DNA of 64,000 nt from Enterobacteriaceae bacterium 89 (GTDB taxonomy: Bacteria > Pseudomonadota > Gammaproteobacteria > Enterobacterales > Enterobacteriaceae): the NCBI GenBank assembly GCA_014156375.1, contig RQJH01000001.1, positions 186,001 through 250,000 of the forward strand. The letters run 5' to 3'. A program made the position numbers and the translations under genes. This document shows, one piece after another, positions 8,017 to 62,786 of the stretch; position 1 is the stretch's first letter, and each line of letters begins with the position of its first letter. The notes beneath the pieces are model-generated. The model had not been told where the DNA came from. It did not search any database and saw nothing but the letters and a program-made list of their open reading frames with translations.

Positions 8017-9192
8017 TTATGCCGGGCTGGCAGAACCTGAGCCGCGTGAACGTAGCAAACTATACCCGGTAACGGCCGCCAGTAGCGAGCCGATCAGAAT
8101 GCCGAGTTTTGCCCAGGTGATCAGTGACGGATCGAGTCCGCCAAATGCCAGCGTGGAGATAAAGATCGACATCGTAAAGCCAATTCCGCACAGCACGCTG
8201 ACGGCAAAAATCTGTTTTCCGGTGGTGTTATGCGGCAGCTTCGCCAACTTCAGACGCAGCGCCAGCCAGCAAAACAGACCAATACCCAGCGGCTTGCCGA
8301 TAAACAGCCCTGCCATAATGCCAAGCGGCAGCAGCGACGTCAGCCCTTCCAGCGTCACGCCCTGCAGTGATACGCCGGCGTTAGCAAACGCAAACAGCGG
8401 CAGGATCAGGAAAGCGACCCACGGATGCAGCACGTGCTCCAGCGATTTGGCCGGAGATTTCCCCGACTGCTCTTTCAACGGAATAAAGAAGCCGACAATC
8501 ACTCCTGCAAGCGTGGCATGAACGCCAGACTTCAGCACCGCCGTCCACAGAATGACCCCGACTAAAATGTAGATCCCGGTACGACGAACATTGCAGATGT
8601 TCAGCACGGCCAGCGCCGCAATCGCCGCTGCGGCCACACCCAGCGACAGCACGGACAGATCGCTAGTGTAGAACAGGGCGATAATCACAATAGCGCCTAA
8701 ATCATCAATAATGGCCAAAGCCATCAGGAAGATTTTCAGCGTCACCGGAACCCGGTTCCCCAGCAGCGCCAAGACGCCGAGAGCAAAGGCGATATCCGTT
8801 GCAGCCGGTATCGCCCATCCCTGACGGGCGATCGGATCCTGGAAGTTAAACGCCAGATACAAAAGCGCGGGAACGACCATCCCACCAATAGCGGCAATGA
8901 CCGGGAACGCAGCCTGCTGGCGGCTTGCCAGCGAGCCTTCCACCATCTCACGCTTCACCTCAAGGCCAATCAGCAGGAAAAACACCGCCATCAGCGCATC
9001 GTTGATCCACAGCAGCATATTCTTATGGATTTCGAGCGGCCCAACTTTTAGCTCGACCGGCGTGGCAAGGAATGCCTGGTACAGATGACTGGTAAGTCCA
9101 GAATTGGCCAGAATCATCGCCAGGGCTGCGGCGATGATGAGAATAATACCGCCAGAGGCATCACTGTTAAAAAAACGATGCAGATATTTCAT
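8017..9192 (-). CDS. nhaA: Na+/H+ antiporter NhaA
   Basis: Electrogenic inner-membrane antiporter that exports one Na+ (or Li+) for two H+, giving salt and alkali tolerance. The 391 residues form 12 membrane segments. The ion-site aspartates are at D163 and D164 (AIIDDLGAI), D133 sits in the first broken helix (ATDIAFALG), and H225 ([10 protein letters not shown]) matches the E. coli pH-sensing histidine. It is the first gene of nhaAR. The accessory island starts just upstream of it. Confidence 0.98.
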
Positions 9193-9319
9193 GTCAAACC
9201 CCGATTCATTTCGGTAAAACAGAATAATAAGCAGTGTAGTCGCATTAATAGCTCGGCAAAAGCAGCTTATATCTGCATATTAAATCGGTAAAATCGAAGA
9301 ATAACCCATACTAAAGCCA

Positions 9320-9970
9320 TTACAACGGCAGGTCTGGCTCTTTTTCAAACGGCAGTGTGATGATATTAGTACTTTGCAGGATGCCATAACTGGCTGAGAA
9401 GTCACTGAACCAGCACTGTTCGTCCTGATGGAGTGAAGCCGGCTTCAGCGCGTAGTAACCGGCGTACATCGGTATGGCAACATGCTGCAAATCGGTGTCG
9501 CTCTCAAGCATGAGGCTGTACTGGAACATTCCGGCACCGCGGTTACTGCGAAACACATAGCGCTGGGCCTGGCATCCCTTCGGCAGCCCAAGCACCGTCG
9601 CATTCACCTCTACCAGACCGGACCTGTCGCTATTCTCCTTAAGGAATGACACCGTATGGCGTAACGTCTTGTTGGCAGCCGGTATTAAAACCGCGGGTTT
9701 GCTCAAATGACTCAGGATGATGTTATTGATACAGGTCGGGAGGACGTTAAGCGTAGACGACTGGCCCACCAGCAGATTTTTGACCAGCAGCGGCTGACCG
9801 AAGACCAGTTCCAACGGCTGGCATTTTCCTGCCGAGCGCAGTTCCACCCTAACGCTCGCCCCGTCCATTCCGGGTTCATCTGCCAGACGAAGCTCCACGT
9901 CGGCAAACTGGCGAGTGACATCAGAGACGGCCAGCGGGCTCCGGCTGGCTGAAAGTTGAATCGATGACAT
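9320..9970 (-). CDS. Unknown protein downstream of chitinase
   Basis: I do not recognise this 216-residue protein. The reading frame is open further upstream, but ATG at 9970 has a GGAG ribosome site 6 nt before it and avoids overlap with the chitinase gene. There is no signal peptide or membrane segment. The sequence alternates short hydrophobic and polar stretches, as in beta-rich folds, and contains scattered cysteines. It follows the chitinase on the same strand by 82 nt, with a hairpin between them. By position it could be a second exported cargo or a chitin-related partner of the chitinase. That role is inference only. Confidence 0.75.
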   Translation of the reverse strand: MSSIQLSASRSPLAVSDVTRQFADVELRLADEPGMDGASVRVELRSAGKCQPLELVFGQPLLVKNLLVGQSSTLNVLPTCINNIILSHLSKPAVLIPAANKTLRHTVSFLKENSDRSGLVEVNATVLGLPKGCQAQRYVFRSNRGAGMFQYSLMLESDTDLQHVAIPMYAGYYALKPASLHQDEQCWFSDFSASYGILQSTNIITLPFEKEPDLPL

Positions 9971-9990
9971 AAATGACTCCGTGTGGTGAT

Positions 9991-10021
9991 AAACACCCCG
10001 GCAAAAACTGTCGGGGTGTTT
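9991..10021 (-). terminator. Hairpin between chitinase and downstream gene
   Basis: A 10-bp perfect stem (AAACACCCCG at 9991-10000, CGGGGTGTTT at 10012-10021) with an 11-nt loop. On the minus strand it ends in GTGTTTAT, a short T-tract, so it may be a partial terminator or an mRNA-stabilising hairpin. Confidence 0.6.
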
Positions 10022-10052
10022 ATTCCATCGGTTATAAAGAAGGGGACAACGC

Positions 10053-11804
10053 TCAGATAGCGCCGAGATCAACCCACGGCTGGCCAACTGCACAGTTCAG
10101 ATCGGGCTGGTCGCCCTGAGTCCACCATGCCGCCTGGTAAGAGTGACCGTTGAAGGTCACAATCTCACCGCCGTTGTAAATCGCTGCCGCATCCCAGGCC
10201 CCTTCAGCAGGTGCAGGGGTGTCATCTTCTTTTGGCTCATCGTCAATCGGATCAACATCGATTGGATCTTCGTCAGGAACCACTGGCTCGTCGGTAGAAG
10301 AACCTTCGTCACCGGTGAGGTTGATGCCTTCGAAGTAAAATTTGTCCATTGAAATCACAGACTGTTCCACTTCATAGCCCAGACCTTCGCGCGCAGCGTT
10401 AAGCAGCACGCCGTTGTCCTGGTCGATAGTCCAGGTGAACATCGCACCCAGGTTATGACGTGCAGCGTATTCGCCTTTCAGTTTGACTGAACGCGGGGTA
10501 TCGAGAGACATAAATACGCCGCTGGTTGGGTTGAACAGGAAGTCCGCATTAGCGACTTCATCGGTATAAACGTTGAAGCCGTTGCGACCTTTCTGGTTTT
10601 CCAGATCCAGGTAGTTATAAATGGTGTCGTACCATTCGGTGCAACCGGATTCGAAGGAACCAACGGTAGTACCCTGAGCCGGGTTATAAGAGCCTTTCAG
10701 CGGAGAGAAGCTTTCGACTACGGCATTTTTGGCGTTGCGGGTGTAACCAGCGTAACCAATGTTGATACGATCGGACGGGAAACCTTCGGCAATCAGATAA
10801 TCAACAACCGCTTCAACGCTCCAGCTCCCTTCGCTCAGCGGCGTCAGGTTAGTGTGGTGAGTCAGTTCAGCCGCCCATGGAGTCCCGAAGAAGTCATAGG
10901 TCATCACGTTGATGCCATACAGACCGGCATCCAGCAGCGCTTTCACGTTGGAGTAACCCAGAACTTCAACAACCGCAGAGCTGGCGATAGAGATTTTGAC
11001 ATCGCTACGACCCGCTGCAGTCAGCTGTGTTTTCAGCTCCTTGATAACCAGCGCATAGTTTTCACCATCTTCTGGGCCGTGTGGGTTGCCGTTGCCGGCG
11101 TTGTTCGGATATTCCCAGTCGATATCCACTTCGCTGAACATCGGGAATTCTTTGAACAGCTTAACCACGCCAGCCGCGAACACTTTGCGGGAAGCTTCGG
11201 CTTTTGCCATGTCGTGGAAACCATTACTCATGGTCCAGCCACCGATACTCATAGACAGCGCCAGTTCATGACCGACTGCTTTAGCTTTCGTCTGCAGATC
11301 GCGCAGACCGCCCAGCAGGCCGTGAGTGTTAGATTCGGTGACAGTTTTTGGATCAACGTCCCAACCGCTGGTTTCCTGATTGCAGTTGACATAAGACTGG
11401 AAGTCACCCCATGGATCGAGGAAGGTGGGTTCGCCAGTCACTTTACCGGTGAGCGCCGCCGCATTAGCAATGGTGGCTTGTTTTTCACCCTGATCGCCAA
11501 CAATGCCCAGGAAGCCGAAGATGATTTTGTCGTAGGCTGTTGGGGTAATGTTCGCCAAATCATAGCCACGACCGCGGTCAGCAGGCTGATCTTTACCTTC
11601 CAGACGGCCATCATACTGAGACCAGTCGGTGTAGTAGCCGAAGACTTTCGGCTTGTTCGCTTTCTTATATTTGTTATAGACCGGAGCCGCTACCCGAGCA
11701 GAGGTATAGCTGTATTTTTCAGTTTCAGTGGCGGCGTTGAAACCGTCGGCTGCATTACTTTGTTCAGTACGGCTGTCGCCTTTAATCAGTTTGCTTGTAG
11801 ACAT
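10053..11804 (-). CDS. GH18 chitinase with C-terminal chitin-binding domain, no signal peptide
   Basis: Predicted endo-acting chitinase of glycoside hydrolase family 18, 583 residues. Visible parts: a TIM barrel from about residue 53 with SIGGW (186-190) and the catalytic DIDWE motif, catalytic E231, with D227 and D229 in place; an acidic Asp/Glu/Pro linker (about 498-535); and a C-terminal CBM5/12 chitin-binding domain (536-583) with aromatic YQAAWWTQG. The first Asp of the usual DxxDxDxE motif is Ser224. The core (SYTSARVAAPVYN, TDWSQYD, GRGYDLA) resembles, from memory, the chitinases associated with insecticidal Tc toxins of Yersinia and Photorhabdus. There is no Sec signal at the N-terminus. 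ATG at 11804 has AGGA upstream and is preferred over a start 45 nt earlier. The holin and endolysin close by suggest the export route. Confidence 0.93.
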   Translation of the reverse strand: MSTSKLIKGDSRTEQSNAADGFNAATETEKYSYTSARVAAPVYNKYKKANKPKVFGYYTDWSQYDGRLEGKDQPADRGRGYDLANITPTAYDKIIFGFLGIVGDQGEKQATIANAAALTGKVTGEPTFLDPWGDFQSYVNCNQETSGWDVDPKTVTESNTHGLLGGLRDLQTKAKAVGHELALSMSIGGWTMSNGFHDMAKAEASRKVFAAGVVKLFKEFPMFSEVDIDWEYPNNAGNGNPHGPEDGENYALVIKELKTQLTAAGRSDVKISIASSAVVEVLGYSNVKALLDAGLYGINVMTYDFFGTPWAAELTHHTNLTPLSEGSWSVEAVVDYLIAEGFPSDRINIGYAGYTRNAKNAVVESFSPLKGSYNPAQGTTVGSFESGCTEWYDTIYNYLDLENQKGRNGFNVYTDEVANADFLFNPTSGVFMSLDTPRSVKLKGEYAARHNLGAMFTWTIDQDNGVLLNAAREGLGYEVEQSVISMDKFYFEGINLTGDEGSSTDEPVVPDEDPIDVDPIDDEPKEDDTPAPAEGAWDAAAIYNGGEIVTFNGHSYQAAWWTQGDQPDLNCAVGQPWVDLGAI

Positions 11805-12161
11805 GATGATAATCCTGTAGTTGATTGAGTTGCAGCGAATTGCCGCCACAAAAGAATCTCACCCAGGTCAGGGAAAAGATAATCACAAGCCGTCATCTGA
11901 TATTTATTGAGACATCACTCGCCCATCATCACCTTTTTTATTAAAAAGTCACCTGAACGTCCACGCTAATAAAACCACACCCCCATTAAACGAGATTTAA
12001 CTGGTTCTTCAATTTCATTTAATAGCCATGCGATTTTGTGAAAGAGCCACCAGCAAAAAGCACATTAATATTTTCCCGGCAAAAAACGTTCGATCAGAAA
12101 AATCTCATTCTCTATTATCCTCATCACAGAATGACATCCACTCTCCGAATCGAAGGTTAAT
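11805..12161. promoter_or_regulatory. AT-rich divergent regulatory region of the chitinase island
   Basis: 357 bases without a gene, between the leftward chitinase gene and the rightward ToxR-like gene. It is clearly richer in A+T than the neighbouring core genes. A TATTAT box at 12113-12118 could be a -10 for the rightward operon, but its -35 is poor. No firm operator could be assigned by eye. It is the obvious place for binding by the two regulators of the island. Confidence 0.5.
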
Positions 12162-12620
12162 ATGAATCAGTATTTAATTAATGACGCATGCATATTTAAT
12201 GAAGTTAGCCAGGAGTTGAGCCTTAAAGACAAGGCAAAAATTATTAAGCTCACCGCTATGCGAAGCCGCTGCCTGAGTCTGATGATTGAGAATGCAGACA
12301 GTAATGTGATTGATAAAAAAACGATTACCGAAGCGTTATGGGGTGAACGTGGGCAGTTTGTCAGCGATGCAAACCTGACTCAGCTGCTTTATCTCATTCG
12401 TAAGGATCTTCGTGATGTCGGGCTTCCCGACTTCTTCAGCACGGTACCTCGCGTTGGGATCCGGGTGAATAACACTATTCCGGTCAGCAAACTCACTTTC
12501 ACTGCAACTGTGCAGAACCCTCTCAAACGCTTTTCTTTCTCGCGAGCCATCGCCGCTGTGTTCGGGTTAGCGACAGTACTGGCCGCCATTGACCTCGCTC
12601 ACATTTCACATTTAATCTGA
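12162..12620 (+). CDS. ToxR/CadC-like membrane-anchored winged-helix regulator
   Basis: Small transcription regulator of 152 residues. Residues 1-105 form an OmpR/ToxR-type winged helix (ITEALWGERG, then ANLTQLLYLIRKDLRDVGLPDFFSTVPRVGIRV, where the recognition helix and the wing ending in a YRV/IRV-type motif are visible). Residues about 128-148 are one hydrophobic membrane helix, leaving only a handful of residues outside. It therefore lacks the large periplasmic sensor domain of CadC or ToxR. The start has AAGG upstream. The endolysin gene begins 16 nt after its stop, so the two are probably co-transcribed. It may control the lysis genes or the divergent chitinase. Confidence 0.85.
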   Translation: MNQYLINDACIFNEVSQELSLKDKAKIIKLTAMRSRCLSLMIENADSNVIDKKTITEALWGERGQFVSDANLTQLLYLIRKDLRDVGLPDFFSTVPRVGIRVNNTIPVSKLTFTATVQNPLKRFSFSRAIAAVFGLATVLAAIDLAHISHLI

Positions 12621-12636
12621 TCTATAAGGCCCAAAG

Positions 12637-13173
12637 ATGAATCCAGTTATTAACAACATTCTCGCCCTCGAAGGCGGATACGTAAACAACCCTGCAGATA
12701 AAGGTGGGGCAACAAAATGGGGTATTACTGAAAACACGGCCCGCAGCCATGGCTATCGGGGAGACATGCGTGACCTCACTCGTGACCAGGCCTATGCCAT
12801 TCTTGAGCAGGATTACTGGATAACGCCGGGGTTTAGTCAGATCGCACAGTACTCTGAAAAACTGGCGTTTGAATTATGTGATGCAGGGACTAACGTCGGC
12901 CCGGCGTGGCCATCGCGCTGGCTACAACGCTGGTTAAATGCCCTGAACTGTCAGGCAACAAAGTATGCCGACCTGGCAGTGGACGGGAAAATTGGCCATC
13001 AGACGCTTCAGGCACTGGAAAGGTATCTCAGCTATCGCGGTCATGAAGGGGAAGAGGTTCTGCTGAAAGGGCTTAACAGTAGTCAAGGGGCCTACTATCT
13101 GGATATTACGGAGAAACGGGCAAGCAATGAAACCTTTATTTATGGCTGGATAAAAAACCGCGTCGTGCTGTAG
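12637..13173 (+). CDS. GH108-type endolysin (N-acetylmuramidase)
   Basis: Predicted peptidoglycan-cutting enzyme of 178 residues. The N-terminal catalytic part has the family signature around E12 (LEGGYVNNPADKGGATKWGIT), where the Glu of EGGY is the catalytic residue. The C-terminal part (about 112-178, DLAVDGKIGHQTLQAL) is the peptidoglycan-binding domain usually paired with it. There is no signal peptide, so it needs a holin to reach the wall. It is co-oriented with the ToxR-like gene (16-nt gap) and convergent with the holin gene. No other phage genes surround it, which argues for a domesticated lysis enzyme used in protein export. Confidence 0.92.
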   Translation: MNPVINNILALEGGYVNNPADKGGATKWGITENTARSHGYRGDMRDLTRDQAYAILEQDYWITPGFSQIAQYSEKLAFELCDAGTNVGPAWPSRWLQRWLNALNCQATKYADLAVDGKIGHQTLQALERYLSYRGHEGEEVLLKGLNSSQGAYYLDITEKRASNETFIYGWIKNRVVL

Positions 13174-13243
13174 TGCAACGCCTGACACGACATTGCTGGC
13201 ACCAGTTAATTGACTACCAGGCGCCAGCACTCCCTGTTATTTC

Positions 13244-13579
13244 TCAAACGCTTCCCTCTCCAATAATTATTTTCTTCACTCTCTCGCCCAGCAAACGTAA
13301 TAATGGGGAGGCAAAAACGCCGCCGATACCGGCTGCTACCATCACCAGATTTGAACTCATCCCCCTTTCGATGGCAATAACGCTGAGTATAAATCCGGTG
13401 AAACAGGACACAATAATTTGCGCCAGACATTCATAAATAAAGCTTCGCATCGGCAAGCTTTCGCGCTTACGCATTAAACAGCTAACAAACCCTCCCCAGC
13501 CGCCAATAATCACTACCGTAATTAAAACCTCCAGTTCTAACTCAAAGAAAGGGGGTGTCGCCGGATTATGCACTAACAT
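13244..13579 (-). CDS. Holin-like small membrane protein (three membrane helices)
   Basis: A 111-residue protein with three hydrophobic helices (about 17-35, 47-70, 76-97), a short N-terminal tail, a basic RKR loop after helix 1 and a charged C-terminus (GERVKK). Size and topology fit a class I phage holin, most like the LydA/holin-III type. The start ATG at 13579 has AGGT nearby. It lies on the strand opposite to the endolysin, ends 70 nt from its stop, and is downstream of the LysR gene on the same strand. Its expected role is to open the inner membrane so the endolysin can act. Confidence 0.85.
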   Translation of the reverse strand: MLVHNPATPPFFELELEVLITVVIIGGWGGFVSCLMRKRESLPMRSFIYECLAQIIVSCFTGFILSVIAIERGMSSNLVMVAAGIGGVFASPLLRLLGERVKKIIIGEGSV

Positions 13580-13712
13580 AGTTACCTACCTGAAGTTTAC
13601 GCAAGAAGACAGAACGCATAGCCTATCCCGCACGGGAAGATATCAATAACCATAAGTCGCCATCCTGTTCTCATTTCCTCTCAATAAACATCAGTGAGAA
13701 CAATCCGGGCTC

Positions 13713-14657
13713 TCATCGGTTAAACGAGGCGGCGCTCTGCAGCGTAGCGACAATCAGCTCAATATCATCAATCAGCAGGTTATCCTTCGACCAGTAGGCA
13801 TACAGGCGCAGCGGCTTCAGTTTTATCTCATCAGGCAAAGGAAGCAGCGAAATGGCACACTGCTTTTTCTCTTTAAAAAACCGCGCGAGTCTGGAGGGGA
13901 TCACCGCGATCATTGAGGAGTTTTCTACCATGTTGATCATTCCGGTAATGGAATCGCTGCGGAATAGGATTTTGCGCTGACCAAAGGGATCGAGGAGGTT
14001 TTGAAACAGGGCGTACTTCTCCTTCAGCGAACGATTTAACCGGTCGTTGGTATACACCACGTGATGAAAGGCAAACAGATTATACAGGCTTAGCTTAGCG
14101 GCATCGGCAAGGGGGTTGCGGTTGCTGCAAATCACACAGTATTGAGTGAACGATTCCACCTCGGCTGTATTCAGCTGCCCATCATCAATAGGGTCAAATG
14201 ACAGGACAATATCTGCCGAGCCGCTAATCAGTATCTCTTTAATCCGCCGGGCATCGTGCTCCCAGAACGAACGATGAGTGATTAAATATTGTCCAAACAG
14301 GTCCAGGCCAATCGTTTTCGATAAATATAATGGCTCGATGATATCGCTGCCGTAGATAGTAATGCCCTGTTTTTGTTTATTTTTACCCGTATCAAAGGTC
14401 GCATCCACAATACCGATGGCCTGACTAAAAGCACTGTGTAACTCCACGGCTTTTGCCGTTGGCGCTAATCCCTCTTTAGTACGAACAAAAAGCACCTCAT
14501 TGTAGGTCGCCTGCAAACGACGTAACGCCATGGAGACCGCTGCGGGAGTTACCTGCAGGTACTTCGAAGCCTTACTGGCATTCCCTTCCCGTATCACCGC
14601 ATCAAGGGTTTTTATTAGGTTAAGATCGAAGTCCTTGATGCTATGAAATGGATTCAT
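13713..14657 (-). CDS. LysR-type transcriptional regulator of the chitinase/lysis island
   Basis: A 314-residue LysR-family regulator: an N-terminal helix-turn-helix (DFDLNLIKTLDAVIREGNASKASKYLQVTPAAVSMALRRLQ) and a periplasmic-binding-protein-like effector domain. ATG at 14657 is chosen because it gives the standard LysR N-terminus (MNPFHSIKDFDLN), with GAGG 9 nt upstream. An in-frame ATG at 14732 would add 25 atypical residues. It reads toward the holin gene, 134 nt away. LysR regulators such as Serratia ChiR control chitinase genes in other enterobacteria, so control of this island is plausible but inferred. Confidence 0.85.
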   Translation of the reverse strand: MNPFHSIKDFDLNLIKTLDAVIREGNASKASKYLQVTPAAVSMALRRLQATYNEVLFVRTKEGLAPTAKAVELHSAFSQAIGIVDATFDTGKNKQKQGITIYGSDIIEPLYLSKTIGLDLFGQYLITHRSFWEHDARRIKEILISGSADIVLSFDPIDDGQLNTAEVESFTQYCVICSNRNPLADAAKLSLYNLFAFHHVVYTNDRLNRSLKEKYALFQNLLDPFGQRKILFRSDSITGMINMVENSSMIAVIPSRLARFFKEKKQCAISLLPLPDEIKLKPLRLYAYWSKDNLLIDDIELIVATLQSAASFNR

Positions 14658-62466: not shown

Positions 62467-62552
62467 GCGAAGGTGGCGGAATTGGTAGACGCGCTAGCTT
62501 CAGGTGTTAGTGTCCTTAGGATGTGGGGGTTCGAGTCCCCCCCCTCGCACCA
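62467..62552 (+). tRNA. tRNA-Leu(CAG), copy 1
   Basis: 86-nt class II tRNA ending in encoded CCA. The anticodon loop TTCAGGT carries CAG. Long variable arm, T arm GGGGG-TTCGAGT-CCCCC. Sequence-identical to copy 3. Corresponds to one of E. coli leuQ/leuP/leuV. Confidence 0.97.
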
Positions 62553-62580
62553 TATACTACGAAGATATTGCTCACACTGG

Positions 62581-62667
62581 GCGACGGTGGCGGAATTGGT
62601 AGACGCGCTAGCTTCAGGTGTTAGTGTCCTTACGGACGTGGGGGTTCAAGTCCCCCCCCTCGCACCA
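62581..62667 (+). tRNA. tRNA-Leu(CAG), copy 2
   Basis: 87-nt class II tRNA with anticodon CAG and encoded CCA. It differs from copies 1 and 3 in base 5 (C for A), in the variable arm (GTCC-TTAC-GGAC) and in the T loop (TTCAAGT for TTCGAGT), and is closer to the E. coli form there. Confidence 0.97.
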
Positions 62668-62700
62668 AAGAGGGCAATATCAAAAAAATAAGATGACTGT

Positions 62701-62786
62701 GCGAAGGTGGCGGAATTGGTAGACGCGCTAGCTTCAGGTGTTAGTGTCCTTAGGATGTGGGGGTTCGAGTCCCCCCCCTCGCACCA
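62701..62786 (+). tRNA. tRNA-Leu(CAG), copy 3
   Basis: 86-nt class II tRNA with anticodon CAG and encoded CCA, identical to copy 1. Last gene of the three-tRNA transcript. No clear terminator is visible behind it. Confidence 0.97.

Follow-up and report, generated by a model that had tools for sequence, protein, structure and literature searches.

Gene content of the island

We analyzed a 64,000-nucleotide stretch of contig RQJH01000001.1 (hereafter the window), in which an island of six genes is flanked by nhaR-nhaA on the left and dnaJ-dnaK on the right. A first-pass annotation had described six genes at positions 9320-14657, and all six were confirmed there, coordinates and families agreeing, by open reading frames and searches of Pfam-type families. 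The features are summarized in Table 1, with genes named after the Salmonella counterparts discussed below.

Table 1. Features of the island in the window and their Salmonella counterparts
Feature	Position	Strand	Remarks
216-residue protein	9320..9970	-	No family match; equivalent to the middle domain of STM0019-type proteins
Terminator-like hairpin in the interval from chiA to the 216-residue gene	9989..10023	-	15-nt arms, 93%
chiA, 583-residue GH18 chitinase with CBM5/12, putative cargo	10053..11804	-	69% over 512 residues to STM0018
Candidate ChiR operator, chiA-chiR intergenic region	11984..12025	.	Matrix from 15 relatives
chiR, 152-residue ToxR-like regulator, one C-terminal membrane helix	12162..12620	+	51% over residues 1-108 to STM0017
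chiP, 178-residue GH108/PG_binding_3 muramidase	12637..13173	+	66% to STM0016
chiH, 111-residue LydA-type holin, three helices	13244..13579	-	58% over 88 residues to STM0015
LysR-type regulator	13713..14657	-	HTH_1 and LysR_substrate; 40% to STM0014

ChiA matched Glyco_hydro_18 (E 1.1e-56) as well as CBM_5_12, and carries the GH18 motif SEVDIDWE, which exhibited at most small changes in the 8 relatives compared. ChiP, whose gene starts 16 bp past the end of chiR, is the sole GH108 match of the genome; it matched Glyco_hydro_108 (E 8.5e-25) and PG_binding_3 (E 6.1e-26), and its EGGY catalytic motif occupies residues 12-15. ChiR matched Trans_reg_C (E 1.5e-7), while ChiH matched Phage_holin_3_3 (LydA; E 9.1e-17). 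A Kyte-Doolittle scan indicated 3 membrane helices in ChiH and a single C-terminal one in ChiR, and no membrane-like stretch in ChiA (N-terminus included), ChiP or the 216-residue protein. The chiA, chiR, chiP, chiH and LysR frames are open across the functional-domain length of their homologues. Family searches of the frames scanned in and near the stretch returned no phage structural, replication or integrase genes, bearing out the earlier statement that capsid, integrase and tail genes are absent. A second GH18 match lies elsewhere in the genome (G000:C2:203784-204683; 33% to ChiA), and the window also contains three tandem tRNA-Leu(CAG) genes at 62467-62786.

Correspondence to the Salmonella chitinase locus

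In an annotated Salmonella Infantis record (L058), STM0014 to STM0020 directly follow dnaJ. The window proteins correspond one-to-one to STM0014-STM0018 with 40-69% identity, and the order and strands of the five genes as well as the dnaJ flank are identical. The likeness extends to a ToxR-like ChiR with a C-terminal membrane helix, and to missing spanins (searched here as the Rz type, PF03245, and as two nested frames). The loci differ in the length of ChiA, which at 583 residues is ~115 shorter than the 699-residue Salmonella protein, and in what comes after it: in Salmonella these are the ~1,000-residue STM0019, STM0020 and fimbrial genes, whereas in the window the middle domain of STM0019 alone precedes nhaA.

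Passages of PMC10109510 (Krone et al. 2023) report that Salmonella chiA is switched on by STM0017 (ChiR), that ChiA is no longer secreted once either STM0015 (holin) or STM0016 (hydrolase) has been deleted, that neither RecA release nor a drop in viable counts occurs, and that deletion of the LysR gene STM0014 is without effect on ChiA. The names chiH and chiP come from PMC13284979 (Mahankali and Geiger 2026), whose passages on Salmonella place both genes under ChiR control, report neither lysis nor a rise in dead cells upon single-cell staining, describe the Salmonella systems as devoid of spanins, and group ChiP with TtsA among the coliphage N4 Gp61 muramidases.

Taken together, these correspondences make it very probable that the window locus is orthologous to the type 10 secretion system (T10SS) that serves chitinase export in Salmonella, and that it most likely works likewise, its function being read across from Salmonella. 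The predicted type 10 secretion of ChiA, with a muramidase replacing the Serratia endopeptidase, is thus strongly supported. The first-pass annotation had proposed a type 10 chitinase-release system of new architecture; the system itself gained strong support from homology to Salmonella, but it is not a new one, and the claim of novelty falls because the published Salmonella chiR-chiA-chiH-chiP system has the same muramidase-type architecture and occupies the same chromosomal site. That the wall enzyme is a muramidase rather than an endopeptidase agrees with the GH108 match, and is likewise already in print for Salmonella.

Comparison with the Serratia and Yersinia systems

As is predicted for the window locus, Serratia marcescens ChiWXYZ uses a holin and a signal-less wall enzyme for chitinase release. 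However, Serratia ChiX is an L-Ala D-Glu endopeptidase of the LAS family, whereas the wall enzyme in the window is of the GH108 type. Passages of PMC13284979 and PMC10847048 list the spanins ChiY and ChiZ for Serratia, in contrast to the window, where no Rz-type spanin was found, and the former source, in the part concerned, describes the Serratia activator ChiR as a LysR-type protein, unlike the ToxR-like ChiR found here. With a GH108 muramidase and no operon pair of Rz-type spanins found, the proposed difference from ChiWXYZ holds.

Yersinia entomophaga also possesses a T10SS, and its Chi2 and Chi1 are the best solved relatives of ChiA. The relevant portions of PMC10847048 describe a lytic system that includes spanins and an endolysin, PepB, similar to the Serratia enzyme; its cassette is located away from the cargo island.

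The muramidase ChiP

Among solved structures, those most closely related to ChiP are the Salmonella muramidases TtsA and Sen1395, with similarity spanning almost the full length of ChiP; the best matches were Sen1395 (6v3z) and 6v40. TtsA exports typhoid toxin, whereas the putative cargo of ChiP is ChiA. Passages of PMC6996933 report that wall edited to 3-3 cross-links is a substrate for TtsA but is not hydrolysed by Sen1395, a specificity that its authors link to groove residues. At four aligned groove positions, ChiP has A114, K118, A162 and N164, compared to I, Q, Q and N in TtsA and D, R, E and D in Sen1395. Because these residues mix TtsA and Sen1395 states, we assigned no wall specificity to ChiP. 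Its score against the NCBIfam model of holin-associated N-acetylmuramidases (NF040573) was 64.7 bits, far below the cut-off of 240, and the scores of its relatives from Salmonella (L003; 64.5) and Superficieibacter (L004; 65.1) were also low.

Distribution and synteny in the family

The first-pass annotation had suggested a search for conserved co-occurrence, which we ran on a family sample of 295 genomes with a match threshold of E 1e-3 or better. ChiP was matched in 46 genomes and ChiH in 37, and the two genes were convergent neighbours in 20 (the window plus 19 fetched loci). All 20 carry chiR, chiA and the LysR gene in the same order. Seventeen of these loci, from ten genera and with the window included, adjoin dnaJ; for the other 3, all from one genus (g103), there was no dnaJ within the 20 kb fetched. 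Recurrence of the same order beside dnaJ in 17 of 295 genomes is not chance. A chitinase secretion locus of the muramidase type, as characterized in Salmonella, thus accompanies dnaJ in ten of the sampled genera.

The locus nevertheless decays in places, since chiA or chiP is interrupted in 2 of the 19 fetched loci: chiA is split in two pieces in L033 (G045), and chiP is in pieces in L029 (G215). The LysR match is shorter in L032. In Salmonella enterica subsp. arizonae (L002/L033), both chiA and the STM0019-type gene are interrupted. Related genes in another arrangement occur in three genomes of genus g36 (G035, G173 and G255), the G173 stretch running out at a contig end with no ChiA in it. 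Several ChiP matches lie in surroundings that look like prophage by eye (L044, L047, L048, L050, L053 and L055).

Within the genus of the window (7 genomes), a GH18 match of some kind was present in 6, those of other species being only 26-33% identical to ChiA. In the six other species of the genus that were sampled, dnaJ lies directly beside nhaA with roughly 170-310 bp between them, suggesting that the island was either gained by the species of the window or lost by its congeners. On the nhaA side, weak alignment with 5 of the 6 empty sites extends up to ~9304 (to 9275 only for L070); on the dnaJ side, there were only short, low-scoring matches to the empty sites. No direct repeat joining both borders was present among the 20 of 22 repeat families listed, and megablast found no near-identical copy of the island in E. 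coli genomes.

Outside the sample, Klebsiella aerogenes LR134125.1 (L059 8001-10133) encodes a ChiA relative (72.6% over query residues 2-497) that lies between fepB and entS within an enterobactin cluster; the annotation of the 17.5 kb examined includes no secretion cassette. Three records filed as phage (OR850988.1, OR845638.1 and AFYI01000001.1) hold Salmonella-like chiH and chiP, 58% and 65-66% identical to those of the window, respectively. AFYI01000001.1 is a Salmonella chromosome contig, and the two short records OR850988.1 and OR845638.1 are probably chromosomal fragments as well.

The 216-residue gene and STM0019-type proteins

The first-pass annotation had listed the 216-residue product as an unknown signal-less protein. 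It indeed has no family and no hydrophobic stretch, but it is not without relatives: it aligns to residues 379-556 of STM0019 (33% over 182 residues), and is 39% and 42% identical to two proteins of Superficieibacter (genus g56). Besides its own genome, 15 of the 295 had a match. Three of these were marginal (E 4e-4), came from genomes of 0.4-0.6 Mb and were taken as chance; the remaining 12 sit within ~1,000-residue frames, of which 9 adjoin chiA and correspond to STM0019, while 3 (genus g103) lie on contigs other than that of the cassette. Full-length STM0019-type proteins carry two similar repeats at the N-terminus, followed by a middle domain and a ~440-residue C-terminal domain. The similarity of the window protein is confined to the middle domain, so that it lacks the full-length architecture, and no convincing trace of the remainder of the gene was found at 9000-10100.

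Loci at dnaJ vary in this respect. In six of them (L024, L025, L027, L028, L029 and L038), nhaA comes straight after chiA with no STM0019-type gene; in L026 and L032, a full STM0019-type gene lies between chiA and nhaA; in seven (L030, L031, L034-L037 and L057), an STM0019-type gene is followed by an STM0020-type gene; and in L033, the STM0019-type gene is in pieces. Judged by gene content, the window looks like an intermediate between loci with and without an STM0019-type gene. The secretion core thus persists where the second gene is shrunken or missing. The 216-residue frame is open and begins with MSSIQ, compared to MSAIS or similar in the full-length proteins. Its start is preceded at six bases by GGAG and, farther upstream, by the hairpin of Table 1 (-25.6 kcal/mol for an 88-nt stretch, z -2.8). 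The gene is either a kept domain or a remnant.

The predicted structure of the 216-residue protein had a mean pLDDT of 48.6, with a plausible beta-rich domain at residues ~20-110, and that of a full-length relative (L004) had a mean pLDDT of 39.5; since both predictions were too poor, neither was suitable for a fold search. The C-terminal domain was represented by an alignment of 10 STM0019-type relatives (A4). No Pfam family was above cut-off for this domain, and no solved relative was found, a single match with an E value of 1.3 being taken as chance. Glycosyl hydrolase family 6 was considered for the domain and rejected, as matches were below cut-off and limited to 2 of the 10 members (L026, E 0.0049; L032, E 0.14). 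In the literature searched, we found no functional study of an STM0019-type protein; the name 'STM0019' occurs once in one Salmonella paper (PMC3662779), and also in plant papers. The STM0019-type protein is the question to which this locus points.

A candidate ChiR operator

Four TTAA-type half-sites, spaced ~10-11 bp or about one helical turn apart, lie between chiA and chiR at 11984-12025. Such a layout of half-sites is common for OmpR/ToxR-type regulators. Both intergenic regions were extracted from 22 loci, of which 16 were aligned; those left out of the alignment had interrupted genes (L029 and L033), were a near relative of another locus (L030, of L003) or had a longer region (L039-L041). 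Five further loci lay outside the extraction, two coming from the same genomes as others (L002 and L057, from those of L033 and L004) and three having other arrangements (L042, L043 and L045). A matrix built from 15 loci without the window ranked 11984-12025 first in the 64 kb, scoring it at 28.0 bits on one strand and 30.3 bits on the other, compared to 10.3 bits for the next separate place, in a test that is not fully independent because the window was part of the alignment from which the block was selected. We thus regard this block as a conserved candidate ChiR operator, which provides a testable target for ChiR.

In the window, the operator matrix yielded no good match upstream of chiH. 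Of three part-matrices scanned over this region, one reached a shuffle fraction of <=0.01 in 10 of 22 loci, the window not among them, while the other two did so in 0 and 1 of 22. A motif common to the chiA-chiR and chiH-LysR regions was rejected as a conserved site: in the window, 11897-11912 and 13679-13694 form an inverted match at 15 of 16 positions, ~95-115 bp from the chiA and chiH starts, but the best match exceeded all six shuffles in only 3 of 19 loci, with a different sequence in each, and the match is not conserved in relatives.

Proposed mechanism and alternative explanations

We propose that a surface or polysaccharide cue would activate the membrane-bound, ToxR-like ChiR and that active ChiR would turn on chiA, chiR-chiP and chiH. 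The holin ChiH would then enable the signal-less ChiP to reach the periplasm, where ChiP would open the wall locally, and the signal-less ChiA would leave the cell, probably without lysis. We consider release probably non-lytic because no Rz-type spanins are present. Phage_lysis (PF03245, Rz) had no match in the genome, in a search for which E. coli alone was positive among 14 control genomes, and neither of two nested frames at the holin had a PHROGs match.

Alternatively, the same locus might act lytically, as the first-pass annotation supposed when it called the system lysis-based, with a minority of cells switching the cassette on and bursting. The cassette genes derive from phage lysis genes, relatives of holin and endolysin being found side by side in phage records, and portions of PMC10847048 describe lytic release for the spanin-bearing T10SSs of Y. 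entomophaga and of induced S. marcescens; for Serratia DB10, the work as told in passages of PMC13284979 found no lytic release. Lysis is nonetheless unlikely in the species of the window, given that neither the holin frames nor the genome yielded an Rz-type spanin and that, in the reports cited above in part, the Salmonella counterpart displayed no RecA release, fall in viable counts or rise in dead-cell staining. The label 'lysis-based' is therefore not supported. Non-lytic release is the better bet for this species, because the window resembles Salmonella in missing Rz-type spanins.

Non-lytic secretion by an intact locus must also be weighed against the view that, in this species, the locus is in decay and has lost its function. 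The STM0019-type partner has been cut down to its middle domain, ChiA, with 583 residues, is shorter than most of its relatives (687-730 residues; 608 for L026), and two relatives have an interrupted chiA or chiP. However, the core frames of the window are open over functional-domain length with catalytic motifs kept, and five loci (L024, L025, L027, L028 and L038) have an uninterrupted core yet no STM0019-type gene, such that loss of function appears very unlikely. Relatives of ChiP and ChiH occur in 539 and 26, respectively, of 50,697 phage records, as might be expected if the island were a degraded prophage in which a chitinase came to lie beside lysis genes by chance. Against this, there are no phage structural or integrase frames near the cassette, chiP and chiH are convergent rather than arranged in a phage-like run, the same gene order recurs in 20 genomes and at one site in 17 of them, with the cassette sitting between housekeeping genes in the syntenic loci, and each gene has a one-to-one functional counterpart in Salmonella. 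A prophage in close relatives had been named at the outset as the observation that would speak against a secretion system; the six congeners, in which dnaJ adjoins nhaA, showed no phage remnants at this site. We regard a prophage origin by chance association as exceedingly improbable.

Possible exchange of cargo at the dnaJ-nhaA site

The nhaA-dnaJ interval of another genome (G009; L043 4141-14605) holds relatives of ChiH, ChiP and LysR together with two ChiR relatives, and gave no chitinase match. In place of the chitinase, it encodes a 1,613-residue RHS-repeat protein (PF05593, E 2.7e-13), along with three further frames without a family, pointing to a possible exchange of cargo at this site. 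It is a decidedly less probable extension that the holin/muramidase cassette at dnaJ-nhaA is a platform for exchangeable cargo, and that the kept middle domain is the part of a second cargo that matters. If this were so, a related core would be kept while the cargo would be a chitinase, a chitinase plus an STM0019-type protein, or an RHS-repeat protein as in L043, and the kept middle domain may serve, for instance, in recognition or surface binding.
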